A stretch of DNA of 64,000 bases from positions 62,001 through 126,000 of the forward strand of contig CAMCHQ010000002.1 in the NCBI GenBank assembly GCA_945874765.1, given 5' to 3'. Below are positions 25,159 to 35,821 of the stretch, one piece after another. The first letter of the stretch is position 1; every line of letters starts with the position of its first letter. The translations under genes and the position numbers were made by a program. The DNA is from an uncultured Clostridia bacterium. GTDB lineage: Bacteria; Bacillota; Clostridia; Oscillospirales; Acutalibacteraceae. The notes under the pieces are model-generated. The model was not told the DNA's origin. It ran no database searches and saw only the letters and a program-made list of their open reading frames with translations.

Positions 25159-25186
25159 TATTCACGATATACGTATATCGTGAATA
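25159..25186. promoter_or_regulatory. Perfect 28-base palindrome ahead of the phage-like operon
   Basis: The sequence from 25159 to 25186 equals its own reverse complement; its centre is CGATATACGTATATCG. A weak promoter, TTGTGC with a 17-base spacer and TATACG, would place the -10 inside it. The size and perfect symmetry suggest an operator for a dimeric repressor, which is not encoded in the cluster. Confidence 0.6.
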
Positions 25187-25252
25187 AAACAGTAAAAATA
25201 AATTTTTTTGCCACTTTTTTAGGCAAAATATAGCCTTTAGACGTTATATTTT

Positions 25253-25290
25253 TCTCTCTACACGCTGTTAGTGTAGGGAGTTTTTCTTTT
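25253..25290 (+). terminator. Terminator-like hairpin in the leader of the phage-like operon
   Basis: CTCTACAC pairs with GTGTAGGGAG with one bulge, followed by TTTTTCTTTT. It lies between the palindrome and the first start codon, so it would act as an attenuator or insulate the operon from reading upstream. Confidence 0.5.
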
Positions 25291-25321: not shown

Positions 25322-25657
25322 ATGTCACGCAGAAAAAAGATAAGCGAAAAGGAGGTATGCGACGGATTAAGACGTCTTGCATTCGGTGAAATTACGGATG
25401 CCGTCAGCCTGCTTTTCGAGCCTGAGGAGGAAATACTTCAGAAACTTAATAAGCTCGATTTATTTAATGTGAGTGAAATTAAACGTCCTAAGGGCGGAGG
25501 AATGGAGATTAAATTCTTTGACAGGCTGAAAGCTATTGACAAAATCAGAGAAATGGTGAATGAGCAAACGGACAAGTCGCCGACCTCGTTTTATGAGGCA
25601 TTGGAAAAAAGTACGCAGGCGACTAAAAAGCATTATACGGAGGAGTTTGATGAATAA
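25322..25657 (+). CDS. Phage terminase small subunit-like protein
   Basis: A 111-residue charged protein starting MSRRKKISEKEVCDGLRRLAFGEITDAVSLL. It lies directly before the large terminase and shares an eight-base overlap with it, the place and size of a small terminase. Residues 10-30 could form a helix-turn-helix-like DNA-recognition part, and FNVSEIKRPKGGGMEIKFFDRLKAIDKIREM resembles the closing part of XtmA-like small subunits. GGAGG seven bases ahead supports the ATG at 25322. The family call rests largely on position. Confidence 0.75.
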   Translation: MSRRKKISEKEVCDGLRRLAFGEITDAVSLLFEPEEEILQKLNKLDLFNVSEIKRPKGGGMEIKFFDRLKAIDKIREMVNEQTDKSPTSFYEALEKSTQATKKHYTEEFDE

Positions 25658-26909
25658 ATTTATACCGTTTTCAAAAAAGCAGCTTGCCGTCTTAAATTGG
25701 TGGTGCAACGGCAGTGACGTTAAAAATAAAAACGGCATAATCTGTGACGGCGCCGTAAGGTCGGGCAAAACGCTTTGTATGGGTATTTCGTTTATTTGTT
25801 GGTCCTTTTATGCTTTTTGCGATACTTCGTTTGCCATTTGCGGGAAAACAATTTCTTCGCTTAGAAGAAACGTTATTACTCCGCTTTTGCCAACGCTAAA
25901 AGAACTCGGTTTCAGCGTTGATTACAGGATTAGCAGGAATATGGTTACGATTTCAAGAGGCAATGTGACTAACCGTTATTATCTTTTCGGCGGCAGAGAT
26001 GAGTCAAGTGCAGCTCTCATTCAGGGTATGACTTTGGGTGGCGTTATGCTCGATGAGGTTGCGCTTATGCCGAGAAGTTTTGTTGAACAGGCAGTCGCAA
26101 GATGTTCTCTTGAAAATTCAAAGTACTTTTTCAACTGCAATCCCGAGCATCCGTATCATTGGTTTTATATGGAATGGATAAAGAAAGCCGAGGAAAAAAA
26201 CGTTTTGTATATCCATTTCACTATGGACGATAATCCCTCTTTGTCCCAAAGCGTTAAAAGAAGATATAAAAGTCTTTATTCGGGTGCGTTTTATGAGAGA
26301 TTTATAGAGGGAAAATGGGTTACGGCACAAGGTCTTGTTTATCCTATGTTTTCACCCCAAAGGCATGTAAAGGTTTGCAATGGAAAATTCAGTCGCTATT
26401 ATCTTTCGTGCGATTACGGAACCGTAAATCCTTTTTCATTGGGTCTTTGGGGAGAGTGCGACGGCAAGTGGTATCGGCTTGACGAGTATTATTATTCAGG
26501 CAGGGACAACGGTATTCAACTGACAGACGAGGAATATTACCGTGAGCTTGAAAAGCTTGCCGCAAACAAAGATATAACGGCTTTGATAATCGACCCGTCA
26601 GCCGCATCTTTTATTCAAACTGTTTTAAGACACAAAAAATTTCGTGTAATTAAAGCGAATAACGATGTTCTCTCGGGTATTAACCGGGTGTGTCAGGCTT
26701 TAAAGGATGAGGAAATATATTTTTATCCTTGCTGCAGTGACGCTATAAGAGAATTTTCGATTTATCGCTGGGATGACAGTATAAAAAAAGATGCGGTTAA
26801 GAAAGAAAACGATCACGCAATGGATGATATACGATATTTTGTCGCAACTGTTTTAAACAAAGACGCCCAAAATACTTCGTTCGCATCTGTTGCAATAGAA
26901 AGGAATTAG
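25650..26909 (+). CDS. Phage terminase large subunit
   Basis: The 419-residue protein is the ATP-driven motor and nuclease that packs DNA into proheads. It has a Walker A CDGAVRSGKT near residue 33, Walker B GGVMLDEVAL near residue 135, and a C-terminal RNase H-like nuclease with the acidic residues in LSCDYGTVNPF, LIIDPSAASF and DHAMDDIRYF. All catalytic parts appear intact. The ATG at 25650 has AGGAG just ahead and overlaps the previous stop. It resembles XtmB of the PBSX group by order in the cluster. Confidence 0.95.
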   Translation: MNKFIPFSKKQLAVLNWWCNGSDVKNKNGIICDGAVRSGKTLCMGISFICWSFYAFCDTSFAICGKTISSLRRNVITPLLPTLKELGFSVDYRISRNMVTISRGNVTNRYYLFGGRDESSAALIQGMTLGGVMLDEVALMPRSFVEQAVARCSLENSKYFFNCNPEHPYHWFYMEWIKKAEEKNVLYIHFTMDDNPSLSQSVKRRYKSLYSGAFYERFIEGKWVTAQGLVYPMFSPQRHVKVCNGKFSRYYLSCDYGTVNPFSLGLWGECDGKWYRLDEYYYSGRDNGIQLTDEEYYRELEKLAANKDITALIIDPSAASFIQTVLRHKKFRVIKANNDVLSGINRVCQALKDEEIYFYPCCSDAIREFSIYRWDDSIKKDAVKKENDHAMDDIRYFVATVLNKDAQNTSFASVAIERN

Positions 26910-26911
26910 CT

Positions 26912-28039
26912 TTGAAGATTTTAGATTTTAGAAAAAAGAAAGGTAAAAATTCAAACGCTGCCTGTGCGGTTCAAACGTCAATCGCCACAAATCATCCTTA
27001 CTACAATCTTACAAGCTATGCGCCGATTAATGCTCAGTCGAGGGTATATGCCGAGCTTAGAAACGCCGTTCCGATTTTGGACGCTGCGATTAATAAAATT
27101 GTGCGTTTATGTGAAGGTTTCAGCTTTGATACCGGCAATGATAAGGTCAACGATATGATGAATACGTATTTTGAGTCGATAAACGTCGGCGGAAACCAAA
27201 AGGGTATTGCTTCGTTTATATCAAATTATCTTAATCAGCTTTTGACATTCGGCACGGCAATCGGTGAAATAGTTATGTGCTCTGACGGAATATATGCTCT
27301 TTATAACAGCGAACTTTCGTCAATCGAACTTAAAAGGGCGAAAAACGGAATTGATGTCGATTATTACAATAACGGCACAAAAATCAATAATCCTAATTTG
27401 ATATTGTATTCCGTTTTAAATCCGAAGCCTGCCGATTTATGCGGTACAAGCCTTCTTTCGGGTTTGCCGTTTGTAAGCAATATTTTGCTCGAAATTTACA
27501 ACACAATCGGGGAAAATTGGAAGCATGCGGGAAATCTTCGATATTCCGTTATTTGCAAGCCGGATAAGGACAGCGCTTATTCAAACGCAAATGAAACGGC
27601 ACAAACCGTTGCTAAGGCTTGGAAAGACGCTATGGATTCAAATTCGGTCAAGGATTTTGTTGCAGTCGGTGATGTAAGCGTTAAGGTAATCGGTGCGGAT
27701 AATGCCGTTCTTGACAGCGAAATCCCTGTCAGACAGCTTCTTGAGCAGATTGTTGCCAAAACAGGACTTCCGCCGTTTATGCTCGGGCTTAGCTGGTCGT
27801 CAACAGAGAGAATGAGTATGCAGCAGGCTGATATTTTAACAAGTGAGCTTGAATCGTACAGACGTATTCTCGAACCGGTTATTAAGCAAATAGGTAATTT
27901 ATACCTTGCGACAAACGCCTTGCCTTATGAAGCAAATGTTGAGTGGAAGAAGATTACGCTTCAAGACGAGTGCGATAAGGCACAGGCAGAACTTTATTCG
28001 GCACAGGCGGAGCAAATAAGAAGGGAGATGGAAGATTGA
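26912..28039 (+). CDS. Phage portal protein
   Basis: The 375-residue protein should form the ring through which DNA enters the capsid and to which connectors attach. RNAVPILDAAINKIVRL, FGTAIGEIV, AGNLRYSVICKP and GLPPFMLGLSWSSTERMSMQQADIL are typical of SPP1/PBSX-like portals. It is on the short side (many are 420-500). The start is a TTG at 26912 after an AAAGGAA site and only two bases after the terminase stop; no ATG fits better. The end overlaps the next gene in TTGA. Confidence 0.9.
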   Translation: MKILDFRKKKGKNSNAACAVQTSIATNHPYYNLTSYAPINAQSRVYAELRNAVPILDAAINKIVRLCEGFSFDTGNDKVNDMMNTYFESINVGGNQKGIASFISNYLNQLLTFGTAIGEIVMCSDGIYALYNSELSSIELKRAKNGIDVDYYNNGTKINNPNLILYSVLNPKPADLCGTSLLSGLPFVSNILLEIYNTIGENWKHAGNLRYSVICKPDKDSAYSNANETAQTVAKAWKDAMDSNSVKDFVAVGDVSVKVIGADNAVLDSEIPVRQLLEQIVAKTGLPPFMLGLSWSSTERMSMQQADILTSELESYRRILEPVIKQIGNLYLATNALPYEANVEWKKITLQDECDKAQAELYSAQAEQIRREMED

Positions 28040-28998
28040 GTTTCGGTTATGTAGAAAAAAGTTTCGAAGCGAGTGCTGAGGATTTAAAGAAAATCAATCA
28101 ATACACAAGGCGAGAATTTGACGCAGACAGTCTTTATGTTTTTTCGGTTATTCTTTGCGATAACGATATTGACAGAGATTTTGAAAAATTCTCATTGTCT
28201 GCTTTAAACGAACTTAAAACGCTTTTTGTCGGCAAAACGGGTATCAGCGACCATTCAATGAAATCGAGCGACCAAAAAGCACGTGTTTTTGAAACGTGGG
28301 TTGAAAAAGGCGAGGGTATGACGACAGCCGACGGCGAGCCTTATTATATGCTCAAAGCAAAGGCGTATATGCTGAGAAATGAGGAAAACAAAAGTTTTAT
28401 TGATGAGCTTGATGCAGGAATTAAAAAAGAGGTTTCCGTATCCTGCTCGTCGAAAAAAGCTACCTGCTCAATTTGCGGCAAGGATAAAAGGCAGTGCAGA
28501 TGTGAACACGTATCGGGCAAAAAGTATAAAGGCAAAACAGCTTGTACGGTTTTGTCAGATATAAGTGACGCATATGAATTCAGTTTTGTTGCCGTACCTG
28601 CGCAAAGAAAGGCAGGAGTTACAAAAGCATTTGAATTTACAAAGGAGAATAATATGGAAGATATTATTAAAACACTTAAAAATATGAGCGACGATACTAC
28701 AGTATCAAAAAGTCAGCTTGATTCGCTTTTGAATTACGTTGACGAGCTTGAAGATGAAGCCGAACTCGGAAGAAAATACAAGAAAAGTCTTTCGGACGAG
28801 GTTATCAGACTTTGTGCTACAGCTATGCCGGAAATGGATATTAAAACATTTTCGTCTGTGGCACAGGTAATGACAGCAAAAGAGCTTTTGTCGTTTAAAG
28901 ACGCTTTTACAAAGAAAAACCGTGAAAGTACGGCAAAGCTTCAAATCAAAAGTAATGACACAAACACAAAAAATACAGTAAATCAATTTAAATTATAA
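28036..28998 (+). CDS. Prohead protease-scaffold fusion (XkdF-like)
   Basis: The 320-residue protein appears to be an HK97-type serine protease joined to a scaffold. The protease half (about residues 30-195) has the His in GISDHSMKS near residue 74 and a Ser in EVSVSCSSKK near residue 137, followed by a four-Cys knuckle CSICGKDKRQCRC, and the core strand YEFSFVAVPAQRKAGV. The second half (after NNMEDIIK) is a helical, charged scaffold. The internal start ATGGAAGAT at 28654, preceded by AAAGGAGAA, would make a separate scaffold of about 115 residues. TTG start at 28036 overlapping the portal stop. Place equals XkdF of PBSX. Confidence 0.8.
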   Translation: MSFGYVEKSFEASAEDLKKINQYTRREFDADSLYVFSVILCDNDIDRDFEKFSLSALNELKTLFVGKTGISDHSMKSSDQKARVFETWVEKGEGMTTADGEPYYMLKAKAYMLRNEENKSFIDELDAGIKKEVSVSCSSKKATCSICGKDKRQCRCEHVSGKKYKGKTACTVLSDISDAYEFSFVAVPAQRKAGVTKAFEFTKENNMEDIIKTLKNMSDDTTVSKSQLDSLLNYVDELEDEAELGRKYKKSLSDEVIRLCATAMPEMDIKTFSSVAQVMTAKELLSFKDAFTKKNRESTAKLQIKSNDTNTKNTVNQFKL

Positions 28999-29017
28999 TT
29001 AACGGAGGAATTTATTT

Positions 29018-30010
29018 ATGTCATACGAAAATATCAAAATTGAAAAGAGTTTATATACAACAGGAAAATCTTTTACTCAGGCACTTGAAAAGCTTGACCC
29101 GTCAGAAAATTACAAGGGCACAGAACTTGAAGGTCTTGACGCATATGAGCGCCAGCTCAAGAGATTTAACATTAAGGTTTCAGGTAAGGATTGCGACACC
29201 GTTTCAAAGTTTTTCCAAACAAGCGACTCGGCAGTACTTTTCCCTGAATTTGTTTCCCGTTCCATTAAGCTTGGTATGAGAGATAATTGCACAATTGACA
29301 ATATGCTTGCCACAACAACTTATGTCGACTCTCTTGACTACAGGTCATTGCAGCTTGACGAAACAGACGATATGAAAACCTTTGACATTGTTCCGGAAGG
29401 TTCGGCATTTGAGGAGGTTAAAATCGGTGTTAAAAGCGATTTAACAAGTCTTAAAAAGTACGGCAAGATGATTTCCGCTTCATACGAGGCTATCAAGTTC
29501 CAAAAGCTTGACTTGTTCTCACTTGCACTTCGCAGAATCGGCGAAAACCTTGTTCACTACGAAACATACGACATCATCGGAAGTGTTAATCCAAACGCAT
29601 TCAACCAGATTAAATATGCAGACGAATTTACATATGATGACCTTGTTGACCTTTATACTTCCCTTATGCCTTACAAGCTCACTACAATTGTAGCCGACCC
29701 TAAGTCATACACAAGACTTCTCAAATTACCTGAACTCAGAGACGCAAATGCAGGTCTTGATTTCCACGCAACAGGCAGAGCAATTACTCCGTTTGGTGCA
29801 GAAGTTTACTGTTTGAGTGAGCTTTCCGAAAATACAATGTACGCCTTTGATAAGAATTATGCTTTTGAAAGAGTTGTTGCTTCAGACGTATCAACCGATT
29901 TCGATAAGCTTATTGACAGACAGATTGAAAGAGCGACTGTTTCTATTATTGTGGGCTTTACAAATGTATTCCCGAAAGCTGTAAAAATATTCAAGAAAAA
30001 AGAGGGATAA
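29018..30010 (+). CDS. Major capsid protein (HK97 fold, XkdG-like)
   Basis: A 330-residue protein in the capsid position, after the protease and before the connectors. It has a 60-90-residue charged N-terminal arm, then SAVLFPEFVSRSIKLGMRDN and, near the C-terminus, ATVSIIVGFTNVFPKAVKIFKK; the region KKYGKMISASYEAIKFQKLDLFSLALRRIGENL corresponds to the long spine helix region of HK97-type shells. A good AACGGAGGA site precedes the ATG. An encapsulin is unlikely because portal, terminase and connectors are all present. Confidence 0.88.
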   Translation: MSYENIKIEKSLYTTGKSFTQALEKLDPSENYKGTELEGLDAYERQLKRFNIKVSGKDCDTVSKFFQTSDSAVLFPEFVSRSIKLGMRDNCTIDNMLATTTYVDSLDYRSLQLDETDDMKTFDIVPEGSAFEEVKIGVKSDLTSLKKYGKMISASYEAIKFQKLDLFSLALRRIGENLVHYETYDIIGSVNPNAFNQIKYADEFTYDDLVDLYTSLMPYKLTTIVADPKSYTRLLKLPELRDANAGLDFHATGRAITPFGAEVYCLSELSENTMYAFDKNYAFERVVASDVSTDFDKLIDRQIERATVSIIVGFTNVFPKAVKIFKKKEG

Positions 30011-30019
30011 GGTGATTTA

Positions 30020-30376
30020 ATGACTGATTTAAGTAAGGTTAAAGAAGAATTTATTACCCTTTCTTTGATGAGTGAGGAAGACGCAGACAAGCAGCAGTCA
30101 CTCATTTATATGGAGACGGAATATGTTAATTCGCTTTTGAAAAGCGGCGACGACGAAAATAATTCCTGCGTGGTATTTCTTTGTGCGGCAAAGGCTTTTT
30201 ATCGATATATGCTTACTAATCAGTCAGACGGTATCACTTCCTTTAAGGCAGGAGATGTGTCATATTCGATTGACACGTCTTCTGCACTTGAAAATGCGAG
30301 GGCAATATATAATTTTGCTCTTGAACAGTGTACCTCACTGATTAAAAACAATTCCTTCGCTTTTGAGGCGGTGTGA
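30020..30376 (+). CDS. Phage head-tail connector (gp6-like)
   Basis: A 118-residue helical protein with LMSEEDADKQQSLIYMETEYVNSLL and AAKAFYRYMLTN, the pattern of the gp6/DUF3199-like connector adaptors that sit beneath the portal. It follows the capsid gene by nine bases and is followed after one base by the next ATG. Family call is from size, helical pattern and position. Confidence 0.7.
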   Translation: MTDLSKVKEEFITLSLMSEEDADKQQSLIYMETEYVNSLLKSGDDENNSCVVFLCAAKAFYRYMLTNQSDGITSFKAGDVSYSIDTSSALENARAIYNFALEQCTSLIKNNSFAFEAV

Positions 30377-30377
30377 T

Positions 30378-30734
30378 ATGAGAAGTGCATATATTATTAA
30401 AAATCAACTTGACAAAATAGGAGTTGAGGCAACGCTTAATGACGGAAAATGGAAGTCAATGCCGTTTAAATGCACAGTAAGTCCTTTGTGGAGAAAAAAG
30501 AGCAGTGCATTTGACGACAGCGTTACAAGTGCCGGAATAAATGAAGCAAGATATCATTTGTATCTCGGTCCGAAAACGCACAATATCCTTGAAATCGGTG
30601 AAGACGGCTATTTGAAAACGGCTAGCGGTAACTATAAGTTTTTAAGAAAAAATGCCGTAAAAATTAATGATGAGGTTATTTATTATACAGGTATTTTAAG
30701 AGAAATAAAGGAGGTAACATATGATGAATATTAA
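30378..30734 (+). CDS. Putative head-closure protein (XkdH-like position)
   Basis: A 118-residue protein with beta-rich content: VEATLNDGKWKSMPFKCTVSPLWRKKSS, then ARYHLYLGPKTHNILEIGEDGYLKTASGNYKFLRKNAVKINDEVIYYTGILREI. Small beta barrels of this size next to gp6-like connectors usually close the head after packaging. The ATG at 30378 is preferred over an upstream frame start because it follows the previous stop by one base. I do not recognise the family firmly. Confidence 0.6.
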   Translation: MRSAYIIKNQLDKIGVEATLNDGKWKSMPFKCTVSPLWRKKSSAFDDSVTSAGINEARYHLYLGPKTHNILEIGEDGYLKTASGNYKFLRKNAVKINDEVIYYTGILREIKEVTYDEY

Positions 30735-31131
30735 TGATACGTTGACCTCTTTTGCAAAGGCGCTTAAAGCCGACAGTTTCTTTAAAAATATCAAAATAAT
30801 TAAACCTTATCCGTATGAGTTTTACGCAGGGGAGATTAAGCAAAGTTTTGTGTGCGTCGGGCTTGACGAGGTGGATGTTTCTGCGCTGGAACTCGGCGAC
30901 GACACAAAGTACGGCAATGTTAAAATCAAACTTGATATATTTACGCCTGTCAGTAATTCGTCATATGCAAAGGATATATTTTTGAATGCCTGTCGTGTAA
31001 GCCAAAGTTTTAATATTGTTTCGATTAAAGCGGAGCCGTTGGTGTATTCAAAAAAGTCTAAAGGTTTCAGGCTTGACGCTTATTTTACGATAAGTGACAG
31101 AATTGATTTTGGAGGTGAAAGCGGTGAATGA
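30721..31131 (+). CDS. Putative tail-terminator/connector protein (XkdI/XkdJ-like position)
   Basis: A 136-residue protein (two adjacent ATG codons after AAGGAGGT) with IKPYPYEFYAGEIKQSFVCVGLDEVDVSALELGDDTKYGNVKIKLDIFTPVSNSSYAKDIFLNACR, a fold pattern like the small tail-completion proteins at the head-tail joint. It is the last gene before the place where a contractile phage would carry sheath, tube, chaperone and tape measure genes. Its stop overlaps the start of a 28-codon ORF. Confidence 0.6.
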   Translation: MMNINDTLTSFAKALKADSFFKNIKIIKPYPYEFYAGEIKQSFVCVGLDEVDVSALELGDDTKYGNVKIKLDIFTPVSNSSYAKDIFLNACRVSQSFNIVSIKAEPLVYSKKSKGFRLDAYFTISDRIDFGGESGE

Positions 31132-31210
31132 GGAATATGAGCAAGCGGAAAATATAAGCGAGATTATCCGTCTTGATAAAAACCGATATGATAAATCCGC
31201 AGGAGAGTAA
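31124..31210 (+). CDS. 28-residue coupled small ORF in the phage-like operon
   Basis: A GTG at 31124 inside the end of the previous gene opens 28 codons (NEEYEQAENISEIIRLDKN in the middle) and a TAA whose last base is the A of the next ATG. GGAGGTG lies seven bases before the GTG. The overlaps on both sides indicate translational coupling. The peptide is charged, acidic at the start and basic later, and helical in appearance. It occupies exactly the slot of the missing sheath-tube-tape measure block, so it may be a scar of their loss or a small functional peptide. Not recognised. Confidence 0.55.
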   Translation: MNEEYEQAENISEIIRLDKNRYDKSAGE

Positions 31211-31722
31211 TGAAGGAATTTAAAATGAGATTTAAGGATTTTGTTTTTGACACAAATCCTTCGTATATTCAGGTAATCACTGCCCGTGACGTTTCAAAAG
31301 CGTCGGTTTATAACGGCAAAACAATAACTCAGGATATATCGCAAAAGCCGATTATTGTTAAAGGAAAAGGAATGTTTTTAGGCGACTCGGCAGCTGAAAA
31401 GTGCAGTCATTTGTCATACCTTTTAAGGCAAGGCGGTGCCGGTGAGCTTCATTGCCCGTCTTTATATCCGATTGAAGCGATTTTTACCGAATTTAAATAT
31501 GATTCAAGTGCCGGCGGAAAAATCGAGTATGAATTTGAGTTTACTCAGGTATGTGACGATAAAAAAGAAATTATGCCACTTGATTATGTGACGGCGCAAG
31601 AGGGTGAAAGCGCCTTTGATATTGCCGCAAGAGCAAATGTAGGCGTTGACGATATTATGAAAGCAAATGATTTTAAAACCCCTTTTTCCATACAAAAGGG
31701 AGATAAGGTGAAGCTGAGATGA
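31210..31722 (+). CDS. LysM-containing baseplate/tail protein (XkdP-like)
   Basis: The 170-residue protein has an N-terminal beta domain (FKDFVFDTNPSYIQVITARDVSKASVYNGKTI, then GGAGELHCPSLYPIEAIFTEFKY) and a C-terminal LysM module (TAQEGESAFDIAARANVGVDDIMKANDF, IQKGDKVKL). XkdP of PBSX and gp53 of T4 share this LysM-bearing layout and bind the hub. It starts in a TAATG overlap with the small ORF and ends in a four-base overlap with the next gene. Confidence 0.75.
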   Translation: MKEFKMRFKDFVFDTNPSYIQVITARDVSKASVYNGKTITQDISQKPIIVKGKGMFLGDSAAEKCSHLSYLLRQGGAGELHCPSLYPIEAIFTEFKYDSSAGGKIEYEFEFTQVCDDKKEIMPLDYVTAQEGESAFDIAARANVGVDDIMKANDFKTPFSIQKGDKVKLR

Positions 31723-32663
31723 AAATTGTTTTAGTAACTGTAGACGGCAAAAAAACAGAGCCTAAGGGTGTTATATCCGCAACGTTGACGCAAACGGCAG
31801 AGGTTGCCTGCGACAGTTTAAGCGTTAAATTTGTCGGCGAAAAGGTTTTGGATGAAATTGAGCGTGTTTATGCCTATCAAAATGACAAGCTTATATTCAA
31901 CGGCTATTGCGATTGCCAAAGAGTGACGGCAGATGAAAACGGGTTTGAAACATATATTTACGCCCGTTCAAGTGCGTGCCTTTTGGTTGATAACGACGCT
32001 TTTGCTTATACATATAATCGTCCGAGTGCACAAAGCCTTTTTATGACTTATGCAAAAGAACTCGGTTTTGTAAGCAAATTGCCTGATATTTGCACCTTTA
32101 AAAAATATGAGGTTTCAAGCGGTTCGTCACTTTACGGCGCAATTAATTCGCTTGTTTCGACAATTACGGGTAATTCGATAAGAATTAATGCCGACAACGA
32201 AATCTTTATGTTAAAGCCGAGTGAAAACGTAATAAATCTCAACAATAACCGTATTATTTCAGCCAAAAGCACTATAAACAGGAGTGAGCCGATTTCAGCC
32301 GTTCATTATAAAAAGGAATTTTCTTATCTTTACGATTGCCATACCTATTCAAAACTTGCCGTCGATTTGGGATTTTCGAGGAAAAGATATGTAAATCTTG
32401 TGTCGCTACCGAGCTGGCAAAGAAATTACAAAATTTCAAAAATGCTTAAAGATTCTTTTAAAGATTATAAGCGCCTTGAAATTAAGATGAACGGCTATTT
32501 TGACGAGGAACTTTTTCAGCGCTTTAATTACAGCTCTTCAATCGGCGATTTTAAGGATTATTTGCTTTATGAAAAGGTTTATTGCGTTGATAAAAACGGA
32601 GAGAAAACGAGGCTTATTTTAAAGAAAAATATTGATATCTCGGAGGTAAATTATGTGGATTAG
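31719..32663 (+). CDS. Baseplate hub protein (gpD/XkdQ-like)
   Basis: A 314-residue protein of the late-control gpD/XkdQ type: early beta strands with VACDSLSVKFVGEKVLDEIERVYAYQNDKLIFNGYCD, YIYARSSACLLVDNDAFAYTYNRPSAQSLFMTYAKELGF and a middle part with SSGSSLYGAINSLVSTITGNSIRINADNEIFM. Such hubs sit at the centre of the baseplate and carry the spike. Overlap of four bases at the start and eleven bases at the end with its neighbours. Confidence 0.75.
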   Translation: MKIVLVTVDGKKTEPKGVISATLTQTAEVACDSLSVKFVGEKVLDEIERVYAYQNDKLIFNGYCDCQRVTADENGFETYIYARSSACLLVDNDAFAYTYNRPSAQSLFMTYAKELGFVSKLPDICTFKKYEVSSGSSLYGAINSLVSTITGNSIRINADNEIFMLKPSENVINLNNNRIISAKSTINRSEPISAVHYKKEFSYLYDCHTYSKLAVDLGFSRKRYVNLVSLPSWQRNYKISKMLKDSFKDYKRLEIKMNGYFDEELFQRFNYSSSIGDFKDYLLYEKVYCVDKNGEKTRLILKKNIDISEVNYVD

Positions 32664-33006
32664 CAGACAGATTATTAAAGAGGAAAAAACGCCGGCTGTT
32701 GAATGCGGCAAGGTCACTATGAGTGCAAACGGTACTGTTGAAGCGGCGTCAACCGGGGTTGAAAGAAATGTTGCTTTTTATGCTCCTTACGGTTATAGCT
32801 TTTGTGTTCCGAAAGGCGAACGGCTTTTGCTTACCCAAGGCGGCGGTGAGCAGGTGTGCATAGGTATTGAAAGCGACAGCGCAAATGTTGAGTGCGGCGA
32901 AATAAAAATAACCTCTTTGTCAGGCGCATATATTTATCTCAAAAATGACGGAAGCATAGAGCTAAACGGACTGACAATATCAAAGGAGGGTAAAATTATT
33001 GAGTGA
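32653..33006 (+). CDS. Baseplate spike-like protein (gpV/XkdR position)
   Basis: A 117-residue beta-rich protein. The C-terminal repeat-like strands CGEIKITSLSGAYIYLKNDGSIELNGLTISKEG are typical of the triple-helix spike of gpV/gp45-type proteins, with ASTGVERNVAFYAPYGYSFCVPKGERLLLTQGGG as the preceding OB-like barrel. It lies between the hub and the gp25-like gene, as expected for a spike. Confidence 0.7.
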   Translation: MWISRQIIKEEKTPAVECGKVTMSANGTVEAASTGVERNVAFYAPYGYSFCVPKGERLLLTQGGGEQVCIGIESDSANVECGEIKITSLSGAYIYLKNDGSIELNGLTISKEGKIIE

Positions 33007-33274
33007 TTATAATAAAAAAACAGCCGATACAATCTATTGGTGTATGGTAAATACCTTTTGCGAAAGAGGAAAGTTTTATCCCGATAAAAATTTCGGAAGC
33101 AGAATATTTGAAACATTAACTAACAAACGTCTTATGCTTTCATATATCAAAATGGCTTTGTCAAAAATCGACGGCGTTTATGTTAAAGATATGACATATG
33201 TGCCAATAGAAAATTTAATTACAATAAATGTTCTTATTAATAATGAGGAAAGGCAGGTGTACGTTACAATATGA
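32999..33274 (+). CDS. Baseplate wedge protein gp25/XkdS-like
   Basis: A 91-residue protein with NFGSRIFETLTNKRLMLSYIKMALSKIDGVYVKDMTY, matching the W/gp25 wedge family pattern (a short domain with a helix after GSRLFE-like). Start is a TTG at 32999 after an AAAGGAGGG site, overlapping the previous stop. Followed by a gpJ-like gene with a four-base overlap, the standard gp25-gpJ pairing of contractile baseplates. Confidence 0.75.
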   Translation: MSDYNKKTADTIYWCMVNTFCERGKFYPDKNFGSRIFETLTNKRLMLSYIKMALSKIDGVYVKDMTYVPIENLITINVLINNEERQVYVTI

Positions 33275-34341
33275 GAGCTTCATATGATGAAATAATCCAA
33301 AGTATGAAAAATGCTTACAAAAACGAACTCGGTGAAGAGGTTATGGCAAATTCAATTACCGAAAAGAAAATTCAGGCAATTGCAAGCGAACTTTACGCAT
33401 TGTCCTGCTACGGCGATTTTATTTTGAAACAGGCATTTGTTCAAACGGCAACAGGCGAATACCTTGAGCGCCACGGTGCGCTTCGTGACTGTGAAAGAAA
33501 GCGTGGCACAAAGGCAAAGGGTTTGCTTGATTTCGGAGTTTATGAGGAAAGCGACAGCGATATTGTTATTGAAAAGGGGACAGTATGTTCAAAGATTTTT
33601 GAGCCTCTTATTCAGTATTCGACAGACGAAACGGTTGTTCTCAAAGCAGGAGAAAAGCGTATTGCGGTTGCCTGTACCGCTTTGGAAAACGGAGAAAAAT
33701 ACAATGCTGAAACCGGAGAGGTGTGTATGCTCGTCAATCCTCCGTCAGGGATAGGGTACGTATGTAATTACAAGCCCGTAATCGGCGGAAGCGATGATGA
33801 AAGCGACGGCGCACTCAGAAAAAGGATTATGTCTACCTTTAAAATTCCGCTTAATTTCTTTAACAAAAGCGCAATTGAGCTTAAAATTAAAAATATTGAC
33901 GATTATAAGGATTGTTCAATAAAGCAAAGCGACGAAGCCGGCAAGGTTAAGGTTATTGTTTCCTGCCCGAGAACGCTTGGCGACGAGGACTTGCAAAAGG
34001 TAAAAAAAGCGTTTCCGCAATCGGAACTGTTTGGTGTTGAAATTCAGCTTGAAGAAGCCAAAAAGACGCACGTCAGCATTAAAGTTAAAGCTAATGTGGA
34101 CGCTGTGACCGACAGAACGGCACAAACAAAGGAAATATATGATAAACTTTATGAGATTTTATCACGTAATAAAATTAATTACAGCATTTCGCTTGACGAG
34201 CTTAGAAAGGCGGCGCTTAAAATTGACAGCGTCCAAAGCATAGAAATAAGCGGTACAAATGTAATGGGTGAAAATATCGTTTGCGGCAGTGACAGTTACA
34301 TTCTTCTTGATAAGTTGGAGGTTGAACTTTATGAGTGTTAA
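33271..34341 (+). CDS. Baseplate J-like protein (gpJ/XkdT)
   Basis: The 356-residue protein is a wedge subunit of contractile baseplates. Seen are TATGEYLERHGALRDCERKRGTKAKGLLDFGV and GTVC, ALENGEKYNAETGEVCMLVNPPSGIGYVCNYKPVIGGSDDESDGALRKRIM, a close match to the gpJ pattern (VxNxxPxxGGxDxESDxxLRxRI). Complete in length against XkdT (about 348). Its presence is strong evidence that the cluster derives from a contractile-tail phage. Confidence 0.9.
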   Translation: MRASYDEIIQSMKNAYKNELGEEVMANSITEKKIQAIASELYALSCYGDFILKQAFVQTATGEYLERHGALRDCERKRGTKAKGLLDFGVYEESDSDIVIEKGTVCSKIFEPLIQYSTDETVVLKAGEKRIAVACTALENGEKYNAETGEVCMLVNPPSGIGYVCNYKPVIGGSDDESDGALRKRIMSTFKIPLNFFNKSAIELKIKNIDDYKDCSIKQSDEAGKVKVIVSCPRTLGDEDLQKVKKAFPQSELFGVEIQLEEAKKTHVSIKVKANVDAVTDRTAQTKEIYDKLYEILSRNKINYSISLDELRKAALKIDSVQSIEISGTNVMGENIVCGSDSYILLDKLEVELYEC

Positions 34342-34894
34342 TTCCAAACGAGAAAACAGACTTTCGACGCTTTTTTCATTAATCAAAGTTAATACTCAAA
34401 ACGGCAGCTTGAATACGTCTATGATTAAAGCCATAGACGCCGGAATGAAACTTGTTGAAAATTATTTTGATGAAATACTTTCCGAAATATTTGTTGACAC
34501 AGCCCAAAATTACGGATTGAAAATGATGTGCGATTTGTTCGATATTAAGCAGACTAACTCAGACGCTGTCAAAAATGGCTTTTCGCAGGGTTTTGTAAAT
34601 TATAAATACGGCGAATTTGAAGAGGAAAGTCAAAAAGCATTTGCAGAAATTTTAGAACTGAGTGTGTCAAATTTCATACTTAATATTAAAGGGAATGCAG
34701 TATTATTAATGTACTTGATTATATATAATATTCCTTTTATTGAAAAATATCTTTGTCCCGGCGTTGTGCCTCGTGCAGATACCGATGCTAATGATTTTGA
34801 CAATTTGGACGATCTTGATTGCAGTGCAGACGATTGGGATGAAATCGGAAAAATGTCATTTAATTTTATTGACAGTTTAGGAGGTGTAGAATGA
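34331..34894 (+). CDS. Tail protein, XkdU/gpI-like position
   Basis: A 187-residue protein after gpJ, where XkdU/YmfQ-like proteins are found. It has RLSTLFSLIKVNTQNGSLNTSMIKAIDAGMKLVENYFDEILSEIFVDTAQNYGLKMMCDLFDIKQ and a more hydrophobic middle (FILNIKGNAVLLMYLIIYNIPF) followed by an acidic tail with many Asp. The ATG at 34331 has GGAGGTTG ahead. Sequence family not firmly recognised; the function as a baseplate-fibre adaptor is inferred from order. Confidence 0.6.
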   Translation: MSVNSKRENRLSTLFSLIKVNTQNGSLNTSMIKAIDAGMKLVENYFDEILSEIFVDTAQNYGLKMMCDLFDIKQTNSDAVKNGFSQGFVNYKYGEFEEESQKAFAEILELSVSNFILNIKGNAVLLMYLIIYNIPFIEKYLCPGVVPRADTDANDFDNLDDLDCSADDWDEIGKMSFNFIDSLGGVE

Positions 34895-35367
34895 GCAGTT
34901 CAAATAAAACAGGAATAGGACTTAATCTTTGGCTTGGCGGCGACAAACCTAAAAGAGAAGATTTTTGTAACGACAATATAATTATCGATAAGCAAATTAC
35001 AGACCATAAAAAAGATATGTCTTGCCATGTATCGGAAGAGGAAAGAAATAAATGGAATACAAATATTTTTTGTGATATTTATTACGGCGATAATGAAAGT
35101 ATGCGTGATATCGATACGGGATGTCCGTTTAATCCAAGTGCGGTAATAATTTTCCCGAGCGGCGTTACCCCTCACGTTTGGGACGCTTCTAACGGCAGGG
35201 GATATATTTATACGGCTTACGGTTCGACATTCGGCACAACAAACGGCTTGCTTTTCAGAAATGACAGAAAAACACTCAGGGTTTATCAAAACTTGAAGGG
35301 TGTAAAAGATGAAGTCGTTTGCCTTAACGAAACAGGCGTGCCGTATTGCTATGTTTGTATAAGATAA
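34891..35367 (+). CDS. Putative tail fibre or receptor-binding protein
   Basis: A 158-residue protein, last of the operon, where phages keep the fibre gene. N-terminal NKTGIGLNLWLGGDKPKREDFCNDNIIIDKQITDHKKDMSCHVSEEERNKWN resembles the short conserved linker found at fibre N-termini (the HVSxEERxKWN phrase is common in Firmicutes phage fibre proteins). The C-terminal part is beta-rich with aromatic residues. Much shorter than normal fibres (over 400 residues). Overlaps its neighbour by four bases and is followed by a terminator. Confidence 0.65.
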   Translation: MSSSNKTGIGLNLWLGGDKPKREDFCNDNIIIDKQITDHKKDMSCHVSEEERNKWNTNIFCDIYYGDNESMRDIDTGCPFNPSAVIIFPSGVTPHVWDASNGRGYIYTAYGSTFGTTNGLLFRNDRKTLRVYQNLKGVKDEVVCLNETGVPYCYVCIR

Positions 35368-35498: not shown

Positions 35499-35575
35499 CG
35501 AGGTGTAGCTCAGCTTGGTAGAGCGCTGCGTTCGGGACGCAGAGGCCGCAAGTTCAAGTCTTGTCACCTCGACCA
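35499..35575 (+). tRNA. tRNA-Pro(CGG)
   Basis: The acceptor stem CGAGGTG/CACCTCG, the D arm, the anticodon stem CTGCG/CGCAG around loop TTCGGGA (anticodon CGG), and the T arm GCAAG-TTCAAGT-CTTGT can all be drawn. CCA is encoded at 35573-35575. Confidence 0.97.
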
Positions 35576-35743: not shown

Positions 35744-35821
35744 TGGTCGAGGTGACAGGACTCGAACCTGCGGCATCCTGCTCCCAAAGCAGGCACTCTA
35801 GCCAAACTGAGTTACACCTCG
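35744..35821 (-). tRNA. tRNA-Pro(TGG)
   Basis: On the minus strand the acceptor stem CGAGGTG/CACCTCG, the anticodon stem CCTGC/GCAGG around TTTGGGA (anticodon TGG), the T arm GCAGG-TTCGAGT-CCTGT and an encoded CCA are visible. Convergent with tRNA-Pro(CGG). Confidence 0.97.

Follow-up and report, generated by a model that had tools for sequence, protein, structure and literature searches.

A 64,000-nt stretch of contig CAMCHQ010000002.1 (positions 62,001 to 126,000; GenBank assembly GCA_945874765.1) from an uncultured gut Clostridia bacterium of the family Acutalibacteraceae, order Oscillospirales, was analyzed and is called the window below; coordinates are those of the window. The operon at 25322-35367 probably encodes a vertically inherited, host-owned DNA-packaging particle resembling a gene transfer agent (GTA), derived from a PBSX-ordered contractile phage and with a tail of near zero length. 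Its genes are open, co-directional, and mostly overlapping, as judged from frames, ribosome-binding sites, and profiles, and run in the order terminase, portal, capsid, and neck (connectors c1 and c2, tail terminator c3), followed by a block of LysM, hub, spike, gp25, gpJ, gp48, and receptor-binding protein. The same layout was found in all 15 same-genus loci uncut by a contig end (21 loci in total). An earlier sequence-only note on this DNA (the original prediction) had described such intact, PBSX-ordered genes and proposed a domesticated, GTA-like particle. Both claims hold up; good support for the second comes from vertical inheritance, occurrence as a single copy, purifying selection, the lack of an adjacent integrase, and a truncated small terminase (TerS) without its DNA-binding domain.

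Absence of sheath and tube

The absence of sheath and tube from the operon is more than chance. Of the 21 genus loci, 17 span the interval between c3 and lysM, which measures 6-108 nt in them (78 nt in the window); in 10 of the 12 sheathed loci tried it measures 1662-2673 nt, the other two giving no value. A recent deletion in one strain, the alternative named in the original prediction, is ruled out: the compact form, without sheath-tube genes, is common to all 17 genus loci that span the interval. The element's tube family was found in 0 of 41 genus genomes versus 10 of 10 controls. Its sheath family, also detected in 10 of 10 controls, gave no match at the operon and matches elsewhere in 3 of the 41 genus genomes, one of them a remnant with stops. 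PF04984 finds a sheath in 1 and PF09393 a tube in 2 of the 41 genomes; both profiles miss divergent families.

The particle might instead be encoded at two loci, with head and baseplate here and sheath, tube, and ruler elsewhere in the genome, as the original prediction also allowed. GTA genes can be dispersed; FpGTA, a GTA of Faecalibacterium, is described with a second operon 125 kb away (PMC12946183). A conventional P2-like prophage also sits on contig C4 (L043, L296) of the window's own genome and brings tail genes of its own; it encodes a terminase of 612 amino acids (aa), a sheath-like protein of 488 aa, a tube-like protein of 171 aa, a ruler of 877 aa, and gpJ, all named by reading and not by profile. 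Against a second locus stand the tube and sheath counts just given, which make it unlikely as a genus-wide rule, the occurrence of gpJ mostly once per genus genome and at the operon, and lineages in which terminator and receptor-binding domain are fused (see below), leaving little space for a tail. We regard the two-locus particle as unlikely.

The interval at 31131-31210, for which the original prediction lists no gene, holds a 28-codon gene (31124..31210, + strand) with a GTG start and its own ribosome-binding site (GGAGG, 11 nt upstream); it shares 8 nt with the end of c3, and its stop codon overlaps the start of lysM. A short reading frame is present in the gap in 17 of 17 spanning genus loci (16 by motif, plus L012), and the family has a pooled ratio of nonsynonymous to synonymous substitution rates (dN/dS) of 0.16 over 14 pairs of relatives. 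In sheathed relatives, the frame directly before lysM encodes a ruler-like protein that is longer and hydrophilic; its start and its end (R-D-[AS]-R-R-[YF]-D) are conserved, its middle is variable, and from its place it would be the tape measure. It was found in 23 of 30 sheathed loci at 77-289 aa (median 179), lengths that use the longest start and are shortened in some cases by start choice; the motif search for it failed in 7 of the 30 sheathed and in 24 of 26 tube-only loci. Four of the 58 length values for loci without tube (136 aa; L017, L019, L067, L069) are c3 itself and not the stub. A profile of the ruler-like C-terminal ends scored at least 8 bits in 18 of 41 distinct small proteins versus 0 of 2050 shuffles, and the reverse search of the stub family against single long proteins was weak (best 2e-4, others 0.1-9). 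Given this likeness of the stub family to the C-terminus of the ruler-like protein in tailed relatives, the tape-measure position seems to have been reduced to a 28-codon stub in the genus. The claim that sheath, tube, and tape measure are all missing therefore stands for sheath and tube, and the tape measure does not appear to be wholly gone.

Inheritance, selection, and distribution

A tree of the large terminase (TerL), portal, protein 4 (encoded between portal and capsid), and capsid had 18 of 24 splits in common with the host rpoB tree, 13 of them well supported in both (27 genomes out of 30 requested, from three families); 2000 relabellings gave a mean of 0.22 and a maximum of 3. Mantel correlation between head genes and rpoB was 0.91 overall and 0.75 within the genus (p 0.0001). 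Downstream neighbors, which we take to be DUF1015-like and peptidase-like proteins, with pantothenate kinase in 6 loci, recur in 10 of 15 genus loci. Counted by portal, the element is present in 21 of 25 genus genomes (its own included) and in 1 of 15 genomes from other families; across the order, 77 of 394 genomes have the portal, always as a single copy, among them 38 of 47 genomes of its own family. Median dN/dS per gene was 0.087-0.276 for sixteen genes, baseplate genes included, with terminase, portal, and capsid best conserved; the pairs include two duplicated ones (L067/L069 = L017/L019, L085/L084 = L025/L024), and c2 reaches 1.04 in one GC-rich pair. The comparison among related genomes that the original prediction had proposed thus finds the locus conserved in the genus and under purifying selection.

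A pattern scan of named genomes gave at least 552 relatives, and the best 80, which were kept, are Clostridia except for one record titled Bacteroides; they include the cultured carrier Eubacterium coprostanoligenes ATCC 51222, whose genus is also that of the window. IMG/VR gave 262 relatives, and the 80 retained all lie on contigs shorter than 31 kb. Phage collections contained six matching records, five being faecal contigs without annotation that share 42-46% identity, one of them 46.7 kb long.

Several observations weigh against the GTA-like reading, and some of them fit a decaying prophage remnant, that is, an ancestral integrated phage losing genes without function. Different blocks are lost in different lineages; gpJ (266 aa) and gp48 (139 aa) are both short in the E. 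coprostanoligenes type strain; and 4 of 25 genus genomes, two of those 97% complete, are without portal. A stop interrupts the portal frame in 2 of 77 genomes, the TerS open reading frame (ORF) is 56 aa in L012, and c2 is 64 aa in L018. Some copies of the operon may be impaired, given the short gpJ and gp48 and the 56-aa TerS. The rpoB tree contradicts 2 of the 18 element splits that have good support, the downstream neighbors recurring in 10 genus loci are missing from the window, and the operon has no recognized lysis genes. Against the profile of ruler C-termini, the stub in the window itself reaches 1.7 bits (E 0.41), so that the link between stub and ruler rests on the family, and the 488-aa sheath-like ORF of the P2-like prophage was missed by PF04984 and phrog_279, so that the sheath and tube searches are not exhaustive. 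A remnant is nevertheless very improbable: each gene has a median dN/dS of 0.09-0.28, which agrees with the original view that this is not general decay, 75 of 77 genomes have an uninterrupted portal frame, the genes retain their translational overlaps and catalytic residues, and co-inheritance extends across three families.

The flanks are chromosomal, with genes for SpoVAC and an ABC protein upstream; downstream lie two tRNA-Pro genes and genes for a glycosidase, an oxidoreductase, and a SpoU methylase. No integrase, replication, or lysogeny genes were found in the operon or in these scanned flanks. Capsid-forming phage-inducible chromosomal islands (cf-PICIs) are mobile, integrase-bearing, and use helper tails. 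A satellite of this kind, making its own heads and taking tails from a helper phage, would share the known layout of head and packaging genes without a tail, and head-only variants exist among relatives. The window element differs in having no recognized integrase or replication gene beside it, in being co-inherited with the chromosome (as measured with rpoB) among common chromosomal neighbors, in keeping its own baseplate, and in having lost, not gained, TerS specificity, all of which makes a satellite extremely improbable.

Tail-loss series among relatives

Full versions with sheath (PF17482, phrog_279), tube (phrog_27038), and ruler make up most of family f14 and part of f25 and occur singly elsewhere, only outside the genus among the loci compared. 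In several loci of the window's own family the tube is kept and the sheath gone, and neither is present in the window's genus and others. In 31 ORFs (at least one pair identical), the tail terminator is fused to a receptor-binding domain, and the lysM-gp48 block is gone in these lineages. Further lineages end at hub, at lysM, or directly after the connectors. A tree of 93 loci calls for at least seven losses of the sheath if it was never regained, a count that assumes midpoint rooting and involves some weak nodes; six of the 93 rows, and others outside the 394-genome sample, were hand-picked. Read as a series, the relatives appear to show a stepwise wearing away of the tail.

L279, L280, L281, L289, L290, and others have what are apparently further fusions (2-[T], 3-[T]), frames in which a tube domain follows or precedes no break after a connector or terminator domain but is joined to it. 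A second sheath-family match of about 353-367 aa lies on another contig in G120, G172, G201, G241, G255, and G300 (family f14) and is perhaps part of a second contractile system.

Packaging, neck, and baseplate genes

All genes of the operon are on the + strand, and the identities of terminase, portal, capsid, LysM, and gpJ are solid profile-based assignments. TerS (25322..25657, 111 aa, PF03592) lacks the N-terminal DNA-binding helix-turn-helix (HTH) part: in the window it matches PF03592 at profile positions 55-132 of 141 only, and relatives outside the genus match from position 1. An HTH profile, which can miss divergent HTHs, found 0 of 20 in genus loci. The HTH is absent in 44 of 45 named compact loci; of the 32 loci in the fusion-type set, 31 have it, and the picture elsewhere is mixed. 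Many relatives outside the genus retain the DNA-binding domain. TerL (25650..26909; PF03237, phrog_2 2.5e-50) has its motor and nuclease residues, in keeping with the original statement that the motor is intact: 9 of 11 catalytic columns are invariant in 203 relatives (fragments shorter than 380 residues dropped), one of the others being T or S and one D or E.

The portal (26912..28039) matches phrog_30703 at 5e-113. Protein 4 (28036..28998), called an XkdF-like protease in the original prediction, matches phrog_16951 (1.4e-95), a family of unknown function, with no protease match in the profile searches, and is possibly a scaffold. The major capsid protein (29018..30010) matches PF25209 (3.7e-11) and phrog_3922 (6.5e-73). 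In most relatives, a gene x (about 112 aa, phrog_4588, virion structural; e.g., L115:12147-12485) lies between protein 4 and capsid; it is missing from the window and its nearest kin.

The putative head-tail connector c1 (30020..30376; no significant profile match) and the putative connector or stopper c2 (30363..30734; no profile match) are conserved families named by position. The fold of c3 (30721..31131) is that of a tail terminator. For the terminator/receptor-binding fusion, the VIA-align fold comparison took in residues 1-146 only.

The baseplate block begins with the LysM protein (31210..31722; XkdP position, PF01476 1.8e-6), followed by the hub (31719..32663; XkdQ position), weak in PHROGs (phrog_177 3.8e-5), whose family profile finds the 43-kDa Mu-type (Mu gp44-type) hubs 1wru, 3d37, and 3cdd at 0.001-0.003. 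A spike-like protein (32653..33006; XkdR position, phrog_25991) has weak matches to phi92 gp138 and Mu gp45, and the gp25-like protein (32999..33274; XkdS), without significant profile match, is placed by gene order. The wedge protein gpJ (33271..34341) matches PF04865 at 1.6e-27 and the solved diffocin protein CD1371 at 4.6e-8. A gp48/XkdU-like wedge (34331..34894) matches PF10076 below cut-off and phrog_521 at 0.0024; its start is more likely at 34331, with GGAGG. The last gene, fib (34891..35367), would encode a receptor-binding-like protein, with a weak match to solved Gp15 (6r5w) in profile comparison (0.023 alone, 0.0033 with the fusion); it corresponds to the C-terminal part of the terminator fusion in the 31 ORFs. 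Of the original baseplate calls, gpJ and LysM are thus secure and the hub is upheld by its family profile, and the names gp25, spike, and gp48 rest mainly on order.

Since spike and hub are kept, the particle could also be bacteriocin-like, docking by both and harming target cells with no DNA delivery. PBSX, with the same gene order, kills without injecting, according to PMC12946183. Such a killing particle is quite unlikely here, as there is no sheath to drive the spike and the genes best conserved by dN/dS are terminase, portal, and capsid.

Other features

Two tRNA-Pro genes face each other at the operon end (35499-35575, + strand; 35744-35821, - strand). tRNA-linked integration was rejected, as tRNA-Pro stands beside the operon in the window only and in none of 22 other loci scanned. 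A perfect palindrome, ATTCACGATATACGTATATCGTGAAT, at 25162-25187 between the ABC gene and terS was seen in none of the relatives scanned. In 64 of 169 distinct loci, versus 13-22 in five shuffles, a leader motif like TATTAGTGnAGGG occurs 30-141 nt ahead of terS, and the window copy (25253-25290) lies within a terminator-like hairpin. At convincing scores, an Rfam scan around the operon gave tRNAs only, and seven relatives gave signal recognition particle RNA only.

Comparison with known systems

PBSX of Bacillus subtilis carries sheath, tube, chaperone, and tape measure. The window operon follows the PBSX order of terminase, portal, protein 4, capsid, connectors, LysM, hub, spike, gp25, gpJ, gp48, and fiber and differs from it in being without sheath, tube, chaperone, and full tape measure. 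The tail of RcGTA is non-contractile and includes a tape measure; its gene order is unrelated, and the window has contractile-type baseplate genes and no tail. The fold matches of c3 include a chain of the native RcGTA particle (6tba). Further likenesses to RcGTA and other alphaproteobacterial GTAs are domestication, vertical inheritance, and a TerS without DNA-binding domain (PMC11841831). The GTA hallmarks seen here are resident, vertical inheritance, this form of TerS, purifying selection on terminase, portal, and capsid, and the lack of mobility genes.

The closest experimental analogue is FpGTA (Borodovich et al., PMC12946183), likened here by its published description to an operon known from its genes. 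FpGTA is described as forming particles of about 40 nm with no visible tail (unexplained) and about 9 kb of host DNA and as near-ubiquitous in its genus; the window operon likewise occurs in most of its genus. It also has a TerS without obvious DNA-binding domain, large terminase, portal, one gene, and major capsid, the "one gene" being read from accession spacing (RCH50851.1/RCH50849.1). Its baseplate, fiber, and lysis genes are in a second operon (PMC12946183), whereas baseplate and fiber genes here are in the same operon. A 16S-probe search for Faecalibacterium gave 0 of 394 genomes, which may reflect missing or masked rRNA. No report of the family, the tail-loss series, the fusion, or the stub was found in the literature, subscription papers and preprints lying outside the coverage.

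Proposed working

TerL would pump host DNA into a small capsid, and because TerS has lost its DNA-binding domain, packaging would start without sequence preference. The portal and connectors c1-c2 would close the head, and c3 would cap the neck. The complex of LysM, hub, spike, gp25, gpJ, and gp48, with the receptor-binding protein, would then dock directly on the c3-capped neck, with the 28-residue ruler stub, presumably descended from a tape measure, perhaps bridging terminator and hub. The original proposal of a baseplate directly below the head fits this anatomy, the docking itself being what we infer from the genes. The assembled, DNA-filled particle would deliver its contents to other cells.

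A wider scenario, to which we give about even chances, is that an ancestral GTA lineage of the order repeatedly dismantled its contractile tail, first the sheath, then ruler and tube, then the baseplate. The window's genus would have kept a 28-residue ruler anchor, with hub, spike, and wedge docked straight on the terminator, and a sister lineage would have welded a receptor-binding domain to the terminator ring; DNA would be delivered, at least to the cell surface, without a tail conduit. That near-zero tail length occurs follows from the welded terminator of this sister lineage.

A series from a full contractile tail to head-only forms within one vertically inherited system would open to testing both how the tail was lost, step by step, and which genes suffice at minimum for DNA packaging and docking. 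The terminator/receptor-binding fusion and the stub tape measure add new elements to the question of how tail length is determined. To our knowledge, GTAs have barely been described so far in Gram-positive gut bacteria; if active, the element would give gut Clostridia a widespread means of exchanging genes.

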